A DNA stretch of 64,000 bases from NCBI GenBank assembly GCA_005880795.1, contig VBGP01000021.1, positions 1 through 64,000 on the forward strand. The letters run 5' to 3'. The DNA comes from Chloroflexota bacterium. GTDB taxonomy: Bacteria; Chloroflexota; Dormibacteria; Dormibacterales; Dormibacteraceae. The translations under genes and the position numbers were made by a program. Of this stretch, positions 25,954 through 34,770 are shown in pieces (position 1 is the stretch's first letter; each line of letters opens with the position of its first letter). Below the pieces are notes generated by a model. It worked only from the letters and a program-made list of their open reading frames with translations, searched no databases and was not told the DNA's origin.

Positions 25954-26095
25954 CAGCCGGCGAGTTCGCATTCCAAGTGATCGCGGGTAGATAGCAACCG
26001 TGATCGCAGTCATGGCCAAGACCTGATCTCGGGCACTTTCGCCGTCGCACGAAACTGCGGATGCTCGCTGCATCAACTTCGTGGAGGTGGCCGCC

Positions 26096-26998
26096 GTGGA
26101 TTCAATCAAGCAGAGGATCGCCAGGCACCCGGTGAGCGCCTTCCTGCTGATTCTCTATCCGGTCAGCTGGATCCTCTTTCTTCCAGCTGTGCTGGGCAAA
26201 TCGGGGCTCGGAGTCCTGCCAGTGGACATTCCGGCCCAGGCAGGCATCCTGCTGGTCACGATCTTCGGTTTGACCGGCGTTGCGTACCTCGTCACCCGGC
26301 TCGCCGACGGTAAGGAAGGGGTCAGGCGGCTTCGCCGTCACTACTACCAGTTTCGCGCGGCGCCCCAGTGGTACCTCATGGCCGTGTTCGGTGCCCCCGT
26401 CCTGTTGGTCATCGTCGGTCTGATTGGCCGTGGCGGCAGCGCGCTGAGCCCGTTCGGCAATCACGTGTCGGGAATCCCCACCACGTATCTGCTGAACGTG
26501 GCTCTCATCGCGATCCTCATCTCGGTGTGGGAAGAGGGCGCCTGGATGGGATTTGTGACAGCGCGGCTGCAAGAGCGCTGGGGGCCAGTGATGGCCAGCA
26601 TCGTGGTGGCTCCGTGCTTCGGGTTCGTGCACCTGCCCCTCTTTTTCATCACCGGCGGCCTGATCGACAACGCCAGACCGCAGGGCTTTCACGTGCTCGA
26701 GTACGCGATCTACCTCTTGCTCCTGTTTTCCATCCCAGTCCGGATCGTGATCACGTGGGCTTTCAACTCGACGAAAGGCAGCCTGCCGGTCGTGGCCTTG
26801 ATGCACGCTTCCATCGACACCACCGCTTCCGGCGTGGTGCTGGCTACGTTCTACCCAGGCATCGACGGCCGGTTGCTGTACGTCGCGATCGCCGTGGTTG
26901 CCGTCGCGGCGATTGTCTTCACTCGCGGACACCTGGGCTATCACACCGAGGCAGACGCTGCTGCTGCCTCACTGGCGCCTCAGCCTGTGCGGGCATGA
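26096..26998 (+). CDS. CPBP-family intramembrane protease, copy 1 of cluster
   Basis: The 300-residue membrane protein has about eight helices. The CPBP glutamate pair is present in WEEGAWMGFVTARLQERWG, but the usual Arg after E-E-x-x-x is Met here. Later motifs FGFVHLPLFF (His) and ALMHASIDTT (His) remain. The start is the GTG at 26096 because GGAGGT lies 7 bases before it; the longer start at 26081 would include that site. It overlaps the next gene by ATGA. It is divergent from the two-component operon. Confidence 0.82.
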   Translation: MDSIKQRIARHPVSAFLLILYPVSWILFLPAVLGKSGLGVLPVDIPAQAGILLVTIFGLTGVAYLVTRLADGKEGVRRLRRHYYQFRAAPQWYLMAVFGAPVLLVIVGLIGRGGSALSPFGNHVSGIPTTYLLNVALIAILISVWEEGAWMGFVTARLQERWGPVMASIVVAPCFGFVHLPLFFITGGLIDNARPQGFHVLEYAIYLLLLFSIPVRIVITWAFNSTKGSLPVVALMHASIDTTASGVVLATFYPGIDGRLLYVAIAVVAVAAIVFTRGHLGYHTEADAAAASLAPQPVRA

Positions 26999-27870
26999 GT
27001 TCCGAGATGCAAGCAATCGAGGTCGCCTCCACTTCGCAGACACAGTCGGGTTTCGTGAAGCTGCTCCGTCGATATCCGCTCATCTCTTACTTCGTGATGG
27101 CTTACGCGATCTCGTGGTTTTACGTGATCGTGTTCGAGATCGTCTGGCCGCTACCGGACACGATCGTCACTGACGTGCCGCTGCTCTTCGGTCCGGTGGG
27201 GGCGGGATTCGTGATGACGGCCGTGGTGGCCGGCCGGGCCGGAGTCAAGCAGCTTCTGCGCAGGCTCGTGCTGTGGCGCGTCAGTCCGCGTTGGTATTTG
27301 CTCGCGGTTGTCGGAATGCCCGCGCTTTACCTGCTCGGCCTGGCCTTGGTGCCCGGCGCGTTCAGCTCGATCAGCCTTCCCCTCACGACCTTGCTGCTTC
27401 TGCCTGCTTTCTTCGTGGTGATTCTGGTCACAGGCGGTCCGCTGCTCGAAGAGCCTGGGTGGCGCGGCTTCGCGCTGCCTCGCCTGCAGCAGCGTTGGGG
27501 TCCGCTGGTCGGGACCCTGATCCTTGGCGTGCTCTGGGCCGGATGGCACGGTCCCCAGTACTTCACGCCCGTCTTCTCGGCAACCAACGGTGGGCTCACT
27601 GTTTCTGGTGTTGCCATTTTCCTGGTCGCGGCGGTCAGCTTTTCATTGATCATCACCTGGGCCTTCAATCACACAAAAGCCAGCCTGGTGATCGCGATCT
27701 TGATCCACCAGTGCATCAACTTTTCCCAAGGACTGACGACCACCATCCTTCCCGGGGCAAAGAACAATGAGGTTGGCCCGGTGTTCGCCTTCGCCGCGGC
27801 CGCGGTGATCATCGTCATTGCCACACGCGGTCGTCTTGGCTACTCGCCGCAGGGCGAGAACAAGAGATGA
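26995..27870 (+). CDS. CPBP-family intramembrane protease, copy 2 of cluster
   Basis: The 291-residue protein has the fully canonical active-site motif LLEEPGWRGFALPRLQQRWG, followed by LWAGWHGPQYF (His) and LIHQCINFSQ (His and Asn). It is the best candidate in the cluster for an active intramembrane metalloprotease. ATGA overlaps link it to both neighbours, so the three genes form one translationally coupled unit. Confidence 0.88.
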   Translation: MSSEMQAIEVASTSQTQSGFVKLLRRYPLISYFVMAYAISWFYVIVFEIVWPLPDTIVTDVPLLFGPVGAGFVMTAVVAGRAGVKQLLRRLVLWRVSPRWYLLAVVGMPALYLLGLALVPGAFSSISLPLTTLLLLPAFFVVILVTGGPLLEEPGWRGFALPRLQQRWGPLVGTLILGVLWAGWHGPQYFTPVFSATNGGLTVSGVAIFLVAAVSFSLIITWAFNHTKASLVIAILIHQCINFSQGLTTTILPGAKNNEVGPVFAFAAAAVIIVIATRGRLGYSPQGENKR

Positions 27871-28751
27871 GCATCGACCTTACTAGCGACCAGGCGGCCC
27901 GCGCCCGATCGAAATCGGGGTTGCTACGCGCCCTTGAGTTTCCGCTCGCTCGCATCGCCGCCGGCATCGTGGCGGCCGGGGCGCTGCTCGTGCCCGCCCA
28001 ACTACTGGCCGGCGGAGCGAGCTCGACCACCATTCGCGGTGCGCTGACCGAGGTCTACACGGGCTTGGCCGCGGGCCTTGCCCTATGGCTGGTGGCGCGA
28101 TTGATCGAGAAGCGCCAGCTGGCTGAGGTCGGGCTGCCTTTTGGCCGAGGCACCGCCTTTCTCCCGATGGGATTTGGGATCGGCGCAGCAATTGCTGGGG
28201 CCTCGATCGGCATCCTGGCGGCCATCGGCTCGTATTCAGTTGTCGGCAACGGAGACCTCTCGGGCTCCACTGGCAACCTTCTGCTGCTCCTGGTTTTCGA
28301 GCTCGGTTCGGCGGCCCTCCAGGCCATCCTTTTCTATGGGATCGTCTTCAGGGTTCTCGCGGAATGGCTTGGGCGATGGCCGGCCATTGCGCTGGCGGTC
28401 GTCCTGTTCGGCGCCATCCACCTCACGGGGCCAGACGCCAGCGCCTTCAGCGCCGTGGTGGTCGGTTTGTCCGGTGGCGTGCTTCTCGCGGTCGGCTACA
28501 TCGCCACTAAGGGCCTATGGCTCCCGATGGGAATTCTGTGGGGAATCAACTTCGCCTTCGCCGAGATCCTGGGCGCAATTCCGAGCGCGCACCATCGGCT
28601 GTTCGAGGCCCGGTTGTCAGGGAACGAGCTGTTGAGCGGAGGGGCGGCGGGTGCGGAAGCGGGTGGCGCAACGTTGATCGTCGTCGCGATTGCGATCGCA
28701 CTGACCTTGTGGTCGGGCTCGAGCCGACTCCGATCCGAGGTAGTCCGATGA
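27867..28751 (+). CDS. CPBP-like membrane protein lacking the catalytic glutamates, copy 3
   Basis: The 294-residue protein has the same helix layout, but where E-E-x-x-x-R is expected the sequence reads LQAILFYGIVFRVLAEWLG, with Gln-Ala in place of Glu-Glu. The second motif FGAIHLTG keeps its His. It is therefore probably catalytically inactive and could act as a regulator, immunity or substrate-adaptor partner of the active copy upstream. It overlaps copy 2 by ATGA. The stop lies 12 bases from the stop of the convergent AhpD-like gene. Confidence 0.75.
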   Translation: MSIDLTSDQAARARSKSGLLRALEFPLARIAAGIVAAGALLVPAQLLAGGASSTTIRGALTEVYTGLAAGLALWLVARLIEKRQLAEVGLPFGRGTAFLPMGFGIGAAIAGASIGILAAIGSYSVVGNGDLSGSTGNLLLLLVFELGSAALQAILFYGIVFRVLAEWLGRWPAIALAVVLFGAIHLTGPDASAFSAVVVGLSGGVLLAVGYIATKGLWLPMGILWGINFAFAEILGAIPSAHHRLFEARLSGNELLSGGAAGAEAGGATLIVVAIAIALTLWSGSSRLRSEVVR

Positions 28752-28763
28752 AGACTGCCCCAC

Positions 28764-29348
28764 TCAAAGCATCTTGACGAGCTGTTCGGCGAGTTGTGGT
28801 CCGTCCATCGGAAGTCCTGACGCGGCCTCCATCCGGCCGCTGAAGTTGAAGAAAGAGATCAACGCATTCGCCTGGTAGATCCCGCGCTCGTCCCAGCCGG
28901 CCGCACGAAGAGCGTCAAAGTCCGCGTCGTCTACAGCCCCGGGCGTCTCCGTCAATTTCTTTGCGTAACCGAGCAAGGCGCGCGTCTTCGGATCCAGCTC
29001 GTAGGTCGGCCAGGTTGTGGCGAACTCGTGGTCCAGATGGTCCAGGCCCGTGAGACGGCGCAAGGCCGCCGAGTGGAGACCGAGTCAAGGTGCACCGCCG
29101 ATCAAGCCGTTGACGACCGTTGCCACCATCTCTCGCTGCACCACGGTCAATGTGACCCGGCGACCCATGTAGATGTGCTGGAAGAGGCGACTCATTCGGT
29201 AGGCCAATCGGAGGTCGGCGAGCTGGACACGCGCGATCCCGGGAACCGCTCCCAATCGCTTCACCATGAGCCTCTCCAGCAGACGCGGCAGCCTGCCCTG
29301 CACGCCCGACGAGTAGAAGCGGCCTGCGTAGACAGATTTCATCTGCAT
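28764..29348 (-). CDS. AhpD/CMD-like peroxidase-family protein with in-frame TGA (candidate selenoprotein)
   Basis: One frame of 195 codons is interrupted only by TGA at 29087-29085 (codon 88). Before it lies VQREMVATVVNGLIGGAP and after it LGLHSAALRRLTGLDHLDH, which is the AhpD-core/peroxidase-related pattern. The family has C-x-x-C-x-x-x-H here: the TGA falls exactly on the second Cys, the His is conserved 4 residues on, and the first Cys is Gly. The rest (LDPKTRALLGYAKKLTETPG, WDERGIYQANALISFFNF) is intact with no frameshift. A 5-bp hairpin with a G-first loop lies 21 bases after the TGA. It is either a selenocysteine codon or a nonsense pseudogene. It is preceded by a shared promoter/operator module. 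Confidence 0.6.
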
Positions 29349-29356
29349 CCCTGCAC

Positions 29357-29385
29357 ATGATTCACCTTCAAGGCTCGTCTGTCAA
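29357..29385 (-). promoter_or_regulatory. Promoter of AhpD-like gene, three-block module copy 1
   Basis: On the minus strand, TTGACA (29385-29380), a 17-base spacer and AATCAT (29362-29357). The ATG at 29348 is 8 bases after the -10 box. Flanking blocks TTTCGCGTGCAC (29412-29401) and TCATGTGC (29360-29353) recur at the SnoaL promoter with the same distances. Confidence 0.65.
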
Positions 29386-29458: not shown

Positions 29459-29899
29459 CTAGGTCTTCGGTGTCGCCTGCATGGACGGCACCACGCCGAG
29501 CTGCTGCAGCATGCCGAGCTGGTCGTAGCTCGACCAGCTCTCGACCTGTTTCCCATCGCGGAATTGGGTGATCATGATGCCGCCGATTGAGACTCGCTTC
29601 CCGGTCGGTGCGATGCCCATCAGCGTCCCCTTGTGGGTGCCCGTAGCCGTGATGCGCGCGGCCACCTTGTCCCTTTCTTCGATCAGGTCCGTGAGCTCGA
29701 ATTCGGTGTCCGGAAAGGCGCTCCGGTACATCCCGACCAGCTGCTTGACACCTTCCGGCCCGGCAAACACGCCACCCGGCGCGGCTGGATCATGGGTTCT
29801 GCAGCCGGGAGCGACAAGTTCGTCCACGAGCTCGAGCTTGCCCCGGTTCCAGACCTGGTCGACGTACGTGCGAGTGAGTTCCTTCAAGTCTTCAGCCAT
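29459..29899 (-). CDS. SnoaL-like polyketide-cyclase-family protein
   Basis: The 146 residues fit the SnoaL/NTF2 fold: YVDQVWNRGKLELVDELVAP, CRTHDPAAPG, VGMYRSAFPDTEFELTDLIE, then ARITATGTHKGTLMGIAPTG and MITQFRDGKQVESWSSYDQLGM. Members isomerise, cyclise or hydrolyse small molecules; the substrate is unknown. I chose the ATG at 29897-29899, with GGGAGGG 8 bases upstream, over an ATG at 29986 inside the operator. It is divergent from the TetR gene and shares a promoter type with the AhpD-like gene. Confidence 0.85.
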   Translation of the reverse strand: MAEDLKELTRTYVDQVWNRGKLELVDELVAPGCRTHDPAAPGGVFAGPEGVKQLVGMYRSAFPDTEFELTDLIEERDKVAARITATGTHKGTLMGIAPTGKRVSIGGIMITQFRDGKQVESWSSYDQLGMLQQLGVVPSMQATPKT

Positions 29900-29972
29900 C
29901 GTTTGGCCCTCCCTGCGAATTGGGCCTCTCGGTTGACGAGGAATGGTCCGGGATGAGGCCCACGGGTGCTCA

Positions 29973-30000
29973 TTTTTCATGTGCACCCACGCACATGAAA
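29973..30000. promoter_or_regulatory. Operator palindrome between SnoaL and TetR genes
   Basis: Perfect 11-base arms TTTTCATGTGC and GCACATGAAAA around ACCCAC. It overlaps the -10 box of the SnoaL promoter and is the likely binding site of the divergent TetR protein. Confidence 0.65.
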
Positions 30001-30058: not shown

Positions 30059-30646
30059 ATGGCCCGCCGTTACCGCCTGAAAGCTCGCGGGCGGCGTCAG
30101 GACGACAACCGTCGTCGGATAGTCGAGGCCGCGTATCAGCTTCACATGACCATCGGCGCCTCTCGGGCGAGCACTAGCGCGATTGCGAGGCTGGCGGGAG
30201 TAAAGAGGCCCACCGTCCAGCGCCATTTCCCTGACCTCGCGAGCCTTTTCATGGCGTGCAGCCTGCACGGAATGCAGCTCGATCCCCCGCCCGATCCGGC
30301 CGCCTGGCAGCGCGTCAAAGATCCCTGCGACCGTCTGCGCATAGCCCTGTGCGAGCTGTACCCGTCGTACCGAAGGCGCCGCGCCGTCTATCTCGACATG
30401 CCCAACTTCGAGGGCGTGCCTGGGCTCGAGGCGTTATGGGCCGTACAGGCGCAACAGATGGAGGGGCGGCGCCGGGTTCTCGCGGAGGGCTGGCAAGTCT
30501 CCGCCGACCGGCGAGAATCGCTGATCGCGGCTGTCGGCCACGCAATCGATTTCTGGACGTGGCGCTCCTTGACTGAGGGTCAGGGCCTGGACGACGAAAA
30601 GGCCGCCCTTCTGATGACCGAGATGGTGGAAGGAATCACCAGGTGA
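30059..30646 (+). CDS. TetR-family transcriptional regulator
   Basis: The 195 residues begin with a basic tail and a TetR helix-turn-helix (NRRRIVEAAYQLHMTIGASR, then AIARLAGVKRPTVQRHFPDL). The C-terminal ligand domain is unassigned. It is divergent from the SnoaL-like gene with 159 bases between starts containing a perfect palindrome, so autoregulation plus repression of SnoaL and the AhpD-like gene is likely. It is translationally coupled (GTGA) to a small membrane protein. Confidence 0.85.
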   Translation: MARRYRLKARGRRQDDNRRRIVEAAYQLHMTIGASRASTSAIARLAGVKRPTVQRHFPDLASLFMACSLHGMQLDPPPDPAAWQRVKDPCDRLRIALCELYPSYRRRRAVYLDMPNFEGVPGLEALWAVQAQQMEGRRRVLAEGWQVSADRRESLIAAVGHAIDFWTWRSLTEGQGLDDEKAALLMTEMVEGITR

Positions 30647-31130: not shown

Positions 31131-34100
31131 TCAGTTGACGGAGATGTCGTCGTACAGCGTGTAGGTCGGATCGGGCGGGTTGATCCAGTTGTCGTCGTGG
31201 TCGATAAGGGTCAGCGTGTACGAGTGGCCACCGGTCAACGTGACCGACCTCTGGACCCAGCTTCCGTTGTTGGTGCAGGTCCTCGCGAGCACCGTCGTGG
31301 TGGTGTTGGTCGTGTTGTCCTTCAGTGTCACCGTGGCCCAGTCATAAGTCACGGTGTCAGTGCAAACGACGCGATACCAGAACGATAAGGTGTGCCCGGT
31401 CCCGGTGGGCGCGGTGAAGGTCTGAGAGATCGAGCTGTCGCCGCTGAACGGCGAGGAGCTGCCGACCTGCGCCGAGTGTGTGCCGGTATGAGCTGTGCTG
31501 CTGACCGAGGTGGCGCCGCTGGTCGCCCAGCCGGTTAAGTCGCCGGTTTCGAACCCACCGTTGACTATCACGCTGGCGGGGGCCGGGTTGACCAGCAACG
31601 TGACGCTTGCGGTGTGGCTCAGGCTCCCGCTGCTGCCCGTGATGGTGATCGTGTACGTGCCTGTCGTCGCTGTGCTGCCCGTCGTCGCGGTCAGCGTCGA
31701 TGAGCCACCGCCTGCGATCGACGCCGGGCTGAACGACCCTGACGCGCCCGCGCCGAAGCCGATGGCCCCAAGCGTGACCGCGCTGCCGAATCCGTTGGTC
31801 GCGGTCACTGTGACGGTATAGGTCGTGCTGTTGCCAACGGTCACGGTCCGGCTCGAGGGAGTGGCGGAGATAGCGAAATCAGGCGGCCCGGTGACGACCA
31901 GGGTCGCGCCGATGCTGTGGTTGAGGGTGCCGCTCGTGCCGGTGATCGTGATCGGGGATGATCCCGTGGCCGCGTCCGAGGTGGTCGTCACGCTCAGCGT
32001 TGAGGTGCCGCTGCCCGTGACTGAGGTTGGGCTGAATGTTGGGGACGCGCCCGAACCGAAGCCCGAGGCGCTCAAGCTAACCGTGTCCACGAACCCGTTC
32101 TGCGCCGTCACCGTGACGGTGTAGCTGGTGCCGCTGCCCTGCACGACGCTCTGGCTGGATGGGCTCACGGCGATGGCGAAATCTGGGGCGGGCGGAGCCG
32201 CCAGGGCAACGTCGTCGAAGAACGTGTAGGTGGGATCGCCCGGGTAGTTGTCGTCGTGGTTGAGCAGGTTCAGCGTGTAGCTGTGACCGCCGGTCAGCGA
32301 GGCCGGGCTGCTCTGCACCCAGGCGCCACTGTTCGAGCAGGTTCTAGACAGGAGCGTGGCCGTGGTCCCGGCGGTGTTGTCGGTCAGGCTCGCCGTGGCC
32401 CAGTCGTATGTGACGGTGTCAGGACAATGGACCTGATACCAGAACGTAAGTGGCCCTGTCGGGGTGGGAGCCGTGAAGGTCTGCGCGATCGTGCTGTCGC
32501 CGTTGAAAGGCGAGGTACTTCCGACCTGTGCGGAGAAGCTGCCGGTGTGAGGAGTGGTGCTGACCGATGTGGCGCCGCTCCTCGTCCAGCCGGTGAAGTT
32601 GCCGGTCTCGAATCCACCGTTGACGACCCCGCCGGTGGCGGAGTTGACGACCAGCGTGACGCTGGTGCTGTGGGTCAGGCTGCCGCTGCTTCCCGAGATC
32701 GTGATGGGGAAGCTGCCCATGGCGGCCCCGCTCGTCGTGGTCACGCTGAGGGTTGACACTCCTCCACCTGTGACGCTGGTGGGATTGAAGACGCCAGAAG
32801 CACCGCTGCCGAATCCGCCCGCGCTCAGGCTGACCGCGCTGTTGAATCCGTTCTGCGCGGTGACCGTGACCGTGTAGCTCGTGCTGCCGCCCTGGATGAT
32901 CGTCTGGCTTGCCGGCGAGGCCGAGATGGTGAAGTCAGGGGCGGGCGGTGTGCCGCATCCAGGGAACTTGAATGACGCGATGCGGGTTCGCCAGTTGAAG
33001 GAGCCGTTGGAAGGGATGTACTCGTTTGCGTACCAGAACGTGCAGTCGTCGGCCGGGTCGACCGCGATCGTGGAGTAGTCACCCCACCGGCTCAAGTTGC
33101 CGTTCTGCGAGCCTGCTCCGGCGATGATCGTTCCCTCGCCCTGCGTCATGGTGCCCGCGGGGTCACCCACGAGACGTCCCGTGTATCGAATCTGCGGGTG
33201 CATCGAGCTGCTGCTGACGCTGTAACCCAGCCCGATGTTGCCCGAGGAGTCCTGGGCGATGCTGCCCATCCATCGATAGTTGGCATCGGGCGCGTATGTG
33301 CCTTGCTGGACGATGCCAAGGCTGTTGCCCCCGCCCGTGCGCAGCTCATACCAGCGGATGCCTACCGAGCTGCCGGCGGCGATGCTGCGATCGACCACAA
33401 GCGCCTCGTGGTCTCCGAAGTTGCGGTAAGCGAGCCGGTACATGAGGCGGTCGCCGAGCGTGTCCAGCCGCTGGCTCGTCCCGGACTGCGGCACGCACGC
33501 GTTGACGTTGCCGCCACAAGGCGATGTGAACGCGGCGGTGGCCAGCGTCGTGGGCCCAGTCAACGTCGTGTTGGCCGAGTTGGCCCAGTCCGTGTGGAAG
33601 GCCCAATAAGCCAGCTGGTTGGAGACCGCTCCGTCGGCGACCAGATAGTTGGGGGAGCCGGCGGGCGGCTGCCGTGTCCCGTCGAAGTCGGAAGGCAGCA
33701 GGCCTCCGTAGTTCGCGCCGAGGCTGAAGCACTGCTGCGTGGCGGCGGCGCCGGTCAGCATGCTGGTGCGGTCGTACGCGCAGGCCTCGCCACCGAGAAA
33801 CGAGTTGCCTGCGGAGTTGAACATGTTGAAGGTTATGTAGTAGGCGTCAGGCCAGACCGCCATCTTGGGGTAGTCCGGAAACTGGTTCCCGTAGCTGAAC
33901 GAATAGCGGTAGTAGGCACCGGTGGGGTCCCCGGTCTGGGACACCGCCACGCACTGCAGGAAGTCGGGATTGGGTGACGTGATGGCGAACTGGCTGATCA
34001 CCCAGCGATTGGCGATCGAGTCGTATTTCGCGATCGGGTCGCCATCGTTGTCCGCCTGGCAGTTGCCTCCGAAGCCACTCCACAGCGTGTTGATCGGGAC

Positions 34101-34583
34101 TGGACCGTAGATCGTGGAGCCCGATTTGTTGAAGATCGCAAAGTCGGTGTTCACGATCTCGAGCACGTGGCCAGGTCCAACGGCGAGGTTGGTGTCTGGA
34201 GGAGCCGAGTTGACGCTGAAGGTCCCCTGAGGGCCGGTGAAACCGTTGCCGACACCCTCGAAGTTGAGCGTGGTCGCCGGCGCGGCTGCCGCGGTATTTG
34301 CGGAGGGCCGGCCGCTGGTGGCGCTCTGGCCGAAGTCAGCCTTGTGGTACGGCTTGGCCCGCTGATTCTCGTGGCCGCCGCGTTGGTCTTGCTGATTCCC
34401 GAGGATCTCGCGCAGCGGTGGCGAGAGGTCCATGTGGACCGCGGGTGACACCTGCGCGCCGTGCAGCACGGGCGGCGGCGGCGGAGCGGCGGCCGTAGCC
34501 CCGACCGCGGGCGCAAGGCCCATCACAAACGCGATCCCGGCCATGACCGGCAGCAGCGATCGCCGAAGCATTGGTACGGTCAC
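31131..34583 (-). CDS. Large modular secreted protein with Ig-like and carbohydrate-binding-like repeats
   Basis: The 1150-residue protein has a signal peptide (MLRRSLLPVMAGIAFVMGLA), a long N-terminal domain (about 60-540) with beta-propeller-like segments (TNLAVGPGHVLEIVNTDFAI, YDSIANRWVISQFAI), three roughly 95-residue Ig-like repeats each opening P-D-F-x-I and containing SYTVTVTAQNGF, and two roughly 150-residue modules opening VNGGFETG and ending in HDDN-Y-F-D-D, like discoidin/MAM-type sugar binding. The order is propeller, Ig, lectin-like, Ig, Ig, lectin-like. The start is the GTG at 34581-34583, with GGGAGG 6 bases upstream. It is likely an extracellular adhesin or polymer binder. Confidence 0.75.
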   Translation of the reverse strand: MTVPMLRRSLLPVMAGIAFVMGLAPAVGATAAAPPPPPVLHGAQVSPAVHMDLSPPLREILGNQQDQRGGHENQRAKPYHKADFGQSATSGRPSANTAAAAPATTLNFEGVGNGFTGPQGTFSVNSAPPDTNLAVGPGHVLEIVNTDFAIFNKSGSTIYGPVPINTLWSGFGGNCQADNDGDPIAKYDSIANRWVISQFAITSPNPDFLQCVAVSQTGDPTGAYYRYSFSYGNQFPDYPKMAVWPDAYYITFNMFNSAGNSFLGGEACAYDRTSMLTGAAATQQCFSLGANYGGLLPSDFDGTRQPPAGSPNYLVADGAVSNQLAYWAFHTDWANSANTTLTGPTTLATAAFTSPCGGNVNACVPQSGTSQRLDTLGDRLMYRLAYRNFGDHEALVVDRSIAAGSSVGIRWYELRTGGGNSLGIVQQGTYAPDANYRWMGSIAQDSSGNIGLGYSVSSSSMHPQIRYTGRLVGDPAGTMTQGEGTIIAGAGSQNGNLSRWGDYSTIAVDPADDCTFWYANEYIPSNGSFNWRTRIASFKFPGCGTPPAPDFTISASPASQTIIQGGSTSYTVTVTAQNGFNSAVSLSAGGFGSGASGVFNPTSVTGGGVSTLSVTTTSGAAMGSFPITISGSSGSLTHSTSVTLVVNSATGGVVNGGFETGNFTGWTRSGATSVSTTPHTGSFSAQVGSTSPFNGDSTIAQTFTAPTPTGPLTFWYQVHCPDTVTYDWATASLTDNTAGTTATLLSRTCSNSGAWVQSSPASLTGGHSYTLNLLNHDDNYPGDPTYTFFDDVALAAPPAPDFAIAVSPSSQSVVQGSGTSYTVTVTAQNGFVDTVSLSASGFGSGASPTFSPTSVTGSGTSTLSVTTTSDAATGSSPITITGTSGTLNHSIGATLVVTGPPDFAISATPSSRTVTVGNSTTYTVTVTATNGFGSAVTLGAIGFGAGASGSFSPASIAGGGSSTLTATTGSTATTGTYTITITGSSGSLSHTASVTLLVNPAPASVIVNGGFETGDLTGWATSGATSVSSTAHTGTHSAQVGSSSPFSGDSSISQTFTAPTGTGHTLSFWYRVVCTDTVTYDWATVTLKDNTTNTTTTVLARTCTNNGSWVQRSVTLTGGHSYTLTLIDHDDNWINPPDPTYTLYDDISVN

Positions 34584-34770
34584 GCCTTCCTCCCGAACCC
34601 GGTTCTGCAACGAAGCCGCCACACGTTAGCACTGGGTCCGGGTTTTGGCTACACGCGTCGAATCCGGCGTCTACGTCGAGCCCAAATCACCGATCGAAAG
34701 CCGGCCTTTCTCGGGGTAACCTTGCCGGGTTGAAAACAGGTTCACTCGCTAAGTCGACAGGAGGGTAGCC

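Follow-up and report, generated by a model that had tools for sequence, protein, structure and literature searches.

Does the in-frame TGA of an AhpD-like gene from a Chloroflexota bacterium (Dormibacteraceae) specify selenocysteine (Sec), or is it a recent lesion in the codon of a catalytic cysteine? The window analysed here is the 64,000-nt stretch at positions 1 to 64,000 of contig VBGP01000021.1, and within it the gene occupies a frame of 194 codons whose sole interruption is the TGA at codon 88 (Table 1); a mechanical list of open reading frames shows it in separate pieces. The first-pass annotation of this DNA had described one frame with AhpD-like sequence on both sides, and profile searches confirmed that description. 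Residues 30-179 of the read-through protein, which span the TGA, match TIGR01926 ('peroxidase-related enzyme') with 79.5 bits, for a cut-off of 81.8, and the Pfam CMD match to the read-through protein is also slightly below its cut-off; another member of the same clade (L090) passes the TIGR01926 cut-off with 107 bits. The protein around the TGA reads NGLIGGAP-U-LGLHSAALRRLT. Aligned with its family, the protein has the TGA in the column of the second Cys of the motif C-x-x-C-x-x-x-H; Gly85 occupies that of the first Cys, while His92 matches the conserved His and Glu73 the proton-relay Glu, just as an earlier ungapped alignment had it for the two Cys sites and for the His that follows three residues on. 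The gene's own terminator is also TGA, which counts against a genome-wide reassignment of this codon.

Table 1. Features of the predicted selenoprotein locus, in coordinates of the 64,000-nt window.
Feature	Position	Strand	Remarks
AhpD-like gene, predicted selenoprotein (GxxU clade)	28764..29348 (incl. stop codon)	-	ATG start here, GTG start in relatives
Predicted Sec88, in-frame TGA	29085..29087	-	TGA in 10/10 clade members
Gly85 codon	29094..29096	-	First Cys site of other AhpD-like proteins
Glu73 codon	29130..29132	-	Counterpart of the AhpD relay Glu; invariant in 20 homologues; relay as in PMC3141380
His92 codon	29073..29075	-	Counterpart of the AhpD relay His; invariant in 20 homologues
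Predicted SECIS hairpin, 5-bp stem and 6-nt loop GCCTTG	29056..29071	-	
Codons +5 to +12 past the TGA, synonymous-site constraint	29049..29072	-	
Promoter-like TTGACA-N17-AATCAT	29357..29385	-	Ends 9 bases ahead of the start codon; kept in four close relatives
Imperfect palindrome CATGTGCAGGGATGCAGATG, candidate TetR operator	29340..29359	-	Over the start codon of the predicted selenoprotein gene
SnoaL-like gene, upstream	29459..29986	-	PF07366, 128 bits; same promoter and palindrome
Second palindrome copy	29978..29997	-	Covers the SnoaL-like gene's start codon
Divergent TetR-family regulator	30059..30646	+	PF00440; 70-84% identical in L082-L085

Relatives of the gene were collected from three sources. 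Within the family, three genomes have it at 77-88% identity with the TGA at the identical codon, a fourth relative came from a search of the class, and the remainder from a scan of GTDB genomes with the peptides QREMVAT and EAASGLPM; since the TGA codon lies outside both peptides, the scan did not select for it. The TGA was present at the position of codon 88 in 10 of the 10 clade members found, the window gene being one of them. These sequences come from at least four phyla (Dormibacterota/Chloroflexota, Actinomycetota, KSB1 and Acidobacteriota), their contigs being labeled Chloroflexi, Dormibacteraeota, Chloroflexia, Rubrobacter, uncultured actinobacterium, KSB1 and Acidobacteria. The phylogenetic tree grouped the ten GxxU proteins into one clade (support 98/96). 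Beside it, and inside a group supported at 100/100, stand two AxxC proteins (L046 and L093) and a CxC protein (L101), all three with Cys at the Sec position.

Among close relatives, dN/dS ranged from 0.04 to 0.17 upstream of the TGA and from 0.04 to 0.09 downstream of it. The first-pass annotation had left open whether close homologues have Cys or TGA at this codon, and had offered as its alternative a recent Cys-to-stop nonsense mutation. Such a lesion, which would make the gene a young pseudogene, would fit a frame that is ordinary apart from the TGA, and also the lack of selA and selB in the draft genome. However, homologues both close and distant keep the TGA and have no other lesion, and, because the same TGA recurs in ten genomes of several phyla and is followed by sequence under strong purifying selection, we reject a nonsense mutation, whose residual probability we regard as negligible. 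A second copy in one relative, G034 (L042/L091, G034:C110:3063-3368), consists of the part past the TGA only, shares about 80% identity with the gene of the window and is probably a truncated remnant. No relatives of the gene were found in viral contigs, and those found in plasmids were distant (below 60% identity).

A putative SECIS element lies directly downstream of the TGA. Thirteen nucleotides separate the UGA from the hairpin CGGCG-GCCTTG-CGCCG, in which a G at +19 from the UGA is the first base of the loop, a layout that agrees with SECIS geometry. The stem and the 6-nt, G-first loop noticed at first reading thus stand, and the region proved to be under synonymous constraint; the distance of the loop, put at 21 bases at first reading, is 19 nt here. 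Pairing of the stem is intact in all ten sequences, with one change to G-U, and no covariation was seen among them, as the stem scarcely varies. The folding energy is ordinary (z from -0.5 to -1.3, about -0.5 for the hairpin alone; not significant), and Rfam gave no SECIS match within 29000-29120. Synonymous sites were more informative. The nine 11-codon windows with the least synonymous divergence in the gene all lie between codons -1 and +17, and the lowest value is reached at +5 to +15. Over codons +5 to +12 the synonymous mismatch was 0.31, compared to a codon-shuffle mean of 0.69 and to 0.53 in the rest of the gene; none of 400 shuffles reached so low a value, a count that is not an exact probability because the shuffle ignores relatedness. 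It is conservation (the TGA in all ten plus the synonymous constraint), and not stability, that raises the hairpin region above chance.

Part of the machinery for Sec insertion was detected in the organism's own genome. When selA, selB, selC and selD were looked for, as had been suggested at the outset, selC (a tRNA-Sec with anticodon TCA, 69.7 bits) and a SelD of 340 bits were found, and selA and selB were absent from the draft, which consists of 217 contigs and is 95.5% complete. The SelD (L017, G000:C170:16920-17822) is itself a predicted selenoprotein, with an in-frame TGA in its active site GAGUACK; UxxK is the motif given for Sec-containing SelD (PMC13188914). The best match to the SelB model in this genome, a 398-aa frame of EF-Tu-like length whose contig also has, close by, a longer frame of EF-G size, was judged not to be SelB. 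Elsewhere in the family, six loci have selA, selB and metF adjacent to one another, the SelA there being identified at 480 bits. As metF is likewise missing from the draft, the three genes are probably one unassembled block, that is, an assembly gap. SelB was above the cut-off in 49 of the 61 genomes searched (the own genome and relatives) and in eight of the ten that host a GxxU gene, the exceptions being the own draft and G113. The tRNA-Sec clearly exceeded its threshold in the own genome as well as in G009, G034, G110, G111, G112 and G114, and doubtful in G030 (47.9 bits). G113, which has a GxxU gene, and G115, where the Cys form alone was found, yielded no SelB and no clear tRNA-Sec.

The conserved UGA, the coding constraint, the hairpin region and the Sec machinery are computed results, and from them we infer Sec insertion into the GxxU protein; we hold it very probable that the gene encodes a working AhpD-like selenoprotein, as first proposed, in view of selC and SelD, the conserved TGA and the constrained hairpin region. 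Two other ways of translating the message deserve mention: the UGA could be read through, in a programmed or leaky manner, with an ordinary amino acid, or two separate proteins could be made, for a TTG just past the UGA offers a restart that would yield a 99-aa frame. Both are very unlikely. The codon sits in the column of the catalytic Cys, where the sister proteins have Cys, SelB and tRNA-Sec are present in most hosts, and the synonymous constraint is located where a SECIS is expected; moreover, the restart product would have an active site without its nucleophile.

The AlphaFold2 model of the protein (pLDDT 87.3) shows an all-helical AhpD-like fold whose best match in the PDB is 3C1L (TM 0.73 by query length) and which also matches 2PFX and 6K40; together with PA0269 (2O4D), these structures are the best profile and fold matches. 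PA0269 shares the spacing Glu-(15)-Cys-(4)-His with the present protein, so that Glu73, Sec88 and His92 are spaced as in the AhpD/PA0269 relay. That relay comprises Glu118, Cys130, His132, Cys133 and His137 in M. tuberculosis AhpD and Glu36, Cys48, Tyr50, Cys51 and His55 in PA0269 (PMC3141380). Glu73 and His92 are invariant in the 20 homologues, and Pro87 occupies the Tyr/His position of the AhpD relays. Unlike 3C1L, 2PFX and PA0269, in which the CxxC is intact, the ten GxxU proteins contain no cysteine at all, and the first Cys is replaced by Gly in every one.

We compared this clade with catalogued selenoproteins. The first-pass annotation had called a G-x-x-U form unusual, and this holds: a 2026 review table of prokaryotic selenoproteins lists the AhpD-type families (TIGR01926, PF02627, NF041047 and NF041238) as CxxU only, with GxxU confined to unrelated families (PMC13188914), and earlier metagenome surveys (Sargasso Sea, GOS) agree in describing the AhpD-like selenoprotein as CxxU (PMC2398784, PMC1088965). 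The CxxU family TIGR01926/COG2128 resembles the present clade in its family membership, in placing Sec second in the redox motif and in the conserved Glu and His, but the present clade has Gly first and no Cys, and groups apart, with the AxxC/CxC relatives. None of the NCBIfam selenoprotein models matches the GxxU members tested. This includes NF041238 (AhpD_rel_CFYUT (seleno)protein), which also describes an AhpD-related selenoprotein family and partially matches CxxU relatives from the same family as the window gene (L024 and L041), whereas the motif here is GGAPU and not CFYU. The AxxC relatives L046 and L093 (Dormibacterota/Chloroflexota) are a sister group, 40-44% identical, that has likewise lost the first Cys and adjoins a divergent TetR gene; they differ in that Cys fills the Sec site and another Cys, possibly a substitute partner, comes right behind the His. 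No description of GxxU AhpD-type or Dormibacter selenoproteins was found in the open-licence literature, and an earlier description elsewhere is possible. Further AhpD-like genes whose TGA forms part of a CxxU motif, all of the known type, were seen in the same family (L024, L029, L032, L039, L040, L041 and L045) and in a member of the Pirellulaceae (L095).

For the GxxU protein we propose the following scheme. SelB and tRNA-Sec would decode UGA codon 88 as Sec, guided by the hairpin 13 nt downstream. Sec88, at the site of the second Cys of the AhpD CxxC, would be activated by Glu73 and His92 and then oxidised, most likely by a peroxide, after which an external thiol or protein would reduce the oxidised Sec88. 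As the chain has no cysteine, an intramolecular Se-S bond is impossible, and the reductant must be external. Against peroxidase-type chemistry, a CMD protein without the first Cys has been considered devoid of peroxidase activity (PMC3141380). The data favour most a peroxidase, or a reductase related to one, that draws on an external thiol; peroxidase-type chemistry of this kind is, in our estimate, somewhat better than an even bet. With similarly modest confidence, we regard the clade as a multi-phylum AhpD-like subfamily with a lone Sec and no cysteine in which an external thiol or partner completes the cycle, the substrate possibly being other than a peroxide. A selenoprotein that is not a peroxidase, its lone Sec carrying out another reduction such as reductive dehalogenation in the manner of the AhpD-like debrominase Bmp8, is an unlikely reading, though not a negligible one: the matches by fold and profile include Bmp8, the present protein lacks the full CxxC pair of AhpD peroxidases, and a SnoaL-like cyclase gene adjoins under the same palindrome; on the other hand, the nearest matches are peroxidase-related proteins, the Glu/His relay is retained and nothing points to a halogenated substrate.

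While the catalogued AhpD-type selenoproteins are of the CxxU type, with a Cys near the selenium, the GxxU clade has kept the predicted selenium and lost every cysteine. It thereby lets one ask whether a selenolate alone, with the AhpD Glu/His relay, makes an efficient catalyst, and which reductant serves it; if the one-Sec mechanism is true, it differs from the two-residue CxxC/CxxU cycle. The clade would also widen the use of Sec among soil bacteria that have received little study, the Dormibacterota for example. Genes of this kind are readily annotated as broken or split in two.

The surroundings of the gene suggest how it may be regulated. The palindrome, of the form CATGTGCANGGGTGCANATG, occurs at exactly two places in the window, for an expectation of 0.01, and in the window as well as in L082 (at 1765 and 2412) and L084 (at 1647 and 2990) it covers the start codons of both the selenoprotein and the SnoaL-like genes, with the same promoter ahead of each. 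The window and L082-L085 share a TetR gene oriented divergently from the selenoprotein gene; in L092, L093/L100 and L094 a TetR gene adjoins the Cys form, though a more distant one (37-41% identical). The selenoprotein and SnoaL-like genes beside the divergent TetR gene are thus a candidate small regulon, in which the regulator would probably repress both genes by binding the palindromes at their start codons. Neighbours other than the TetR and SnoaL genes are not conserved across phyla, so they give no clue to the substrate. In the window, a run of plus-strand membrane-protein frames (26081-28751) adjoins the selenoprotein gene; the last of them (27867-28751) matches the Rce1-like CAAX protease family, and the others look similar by eye. 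On the other side, a minus-strand frame of 1163 aa (31131-34622) with repeat modules of the type 'DFxISxxPxSxTV', recognized by eye, probably encodes a secreted repeat protein.
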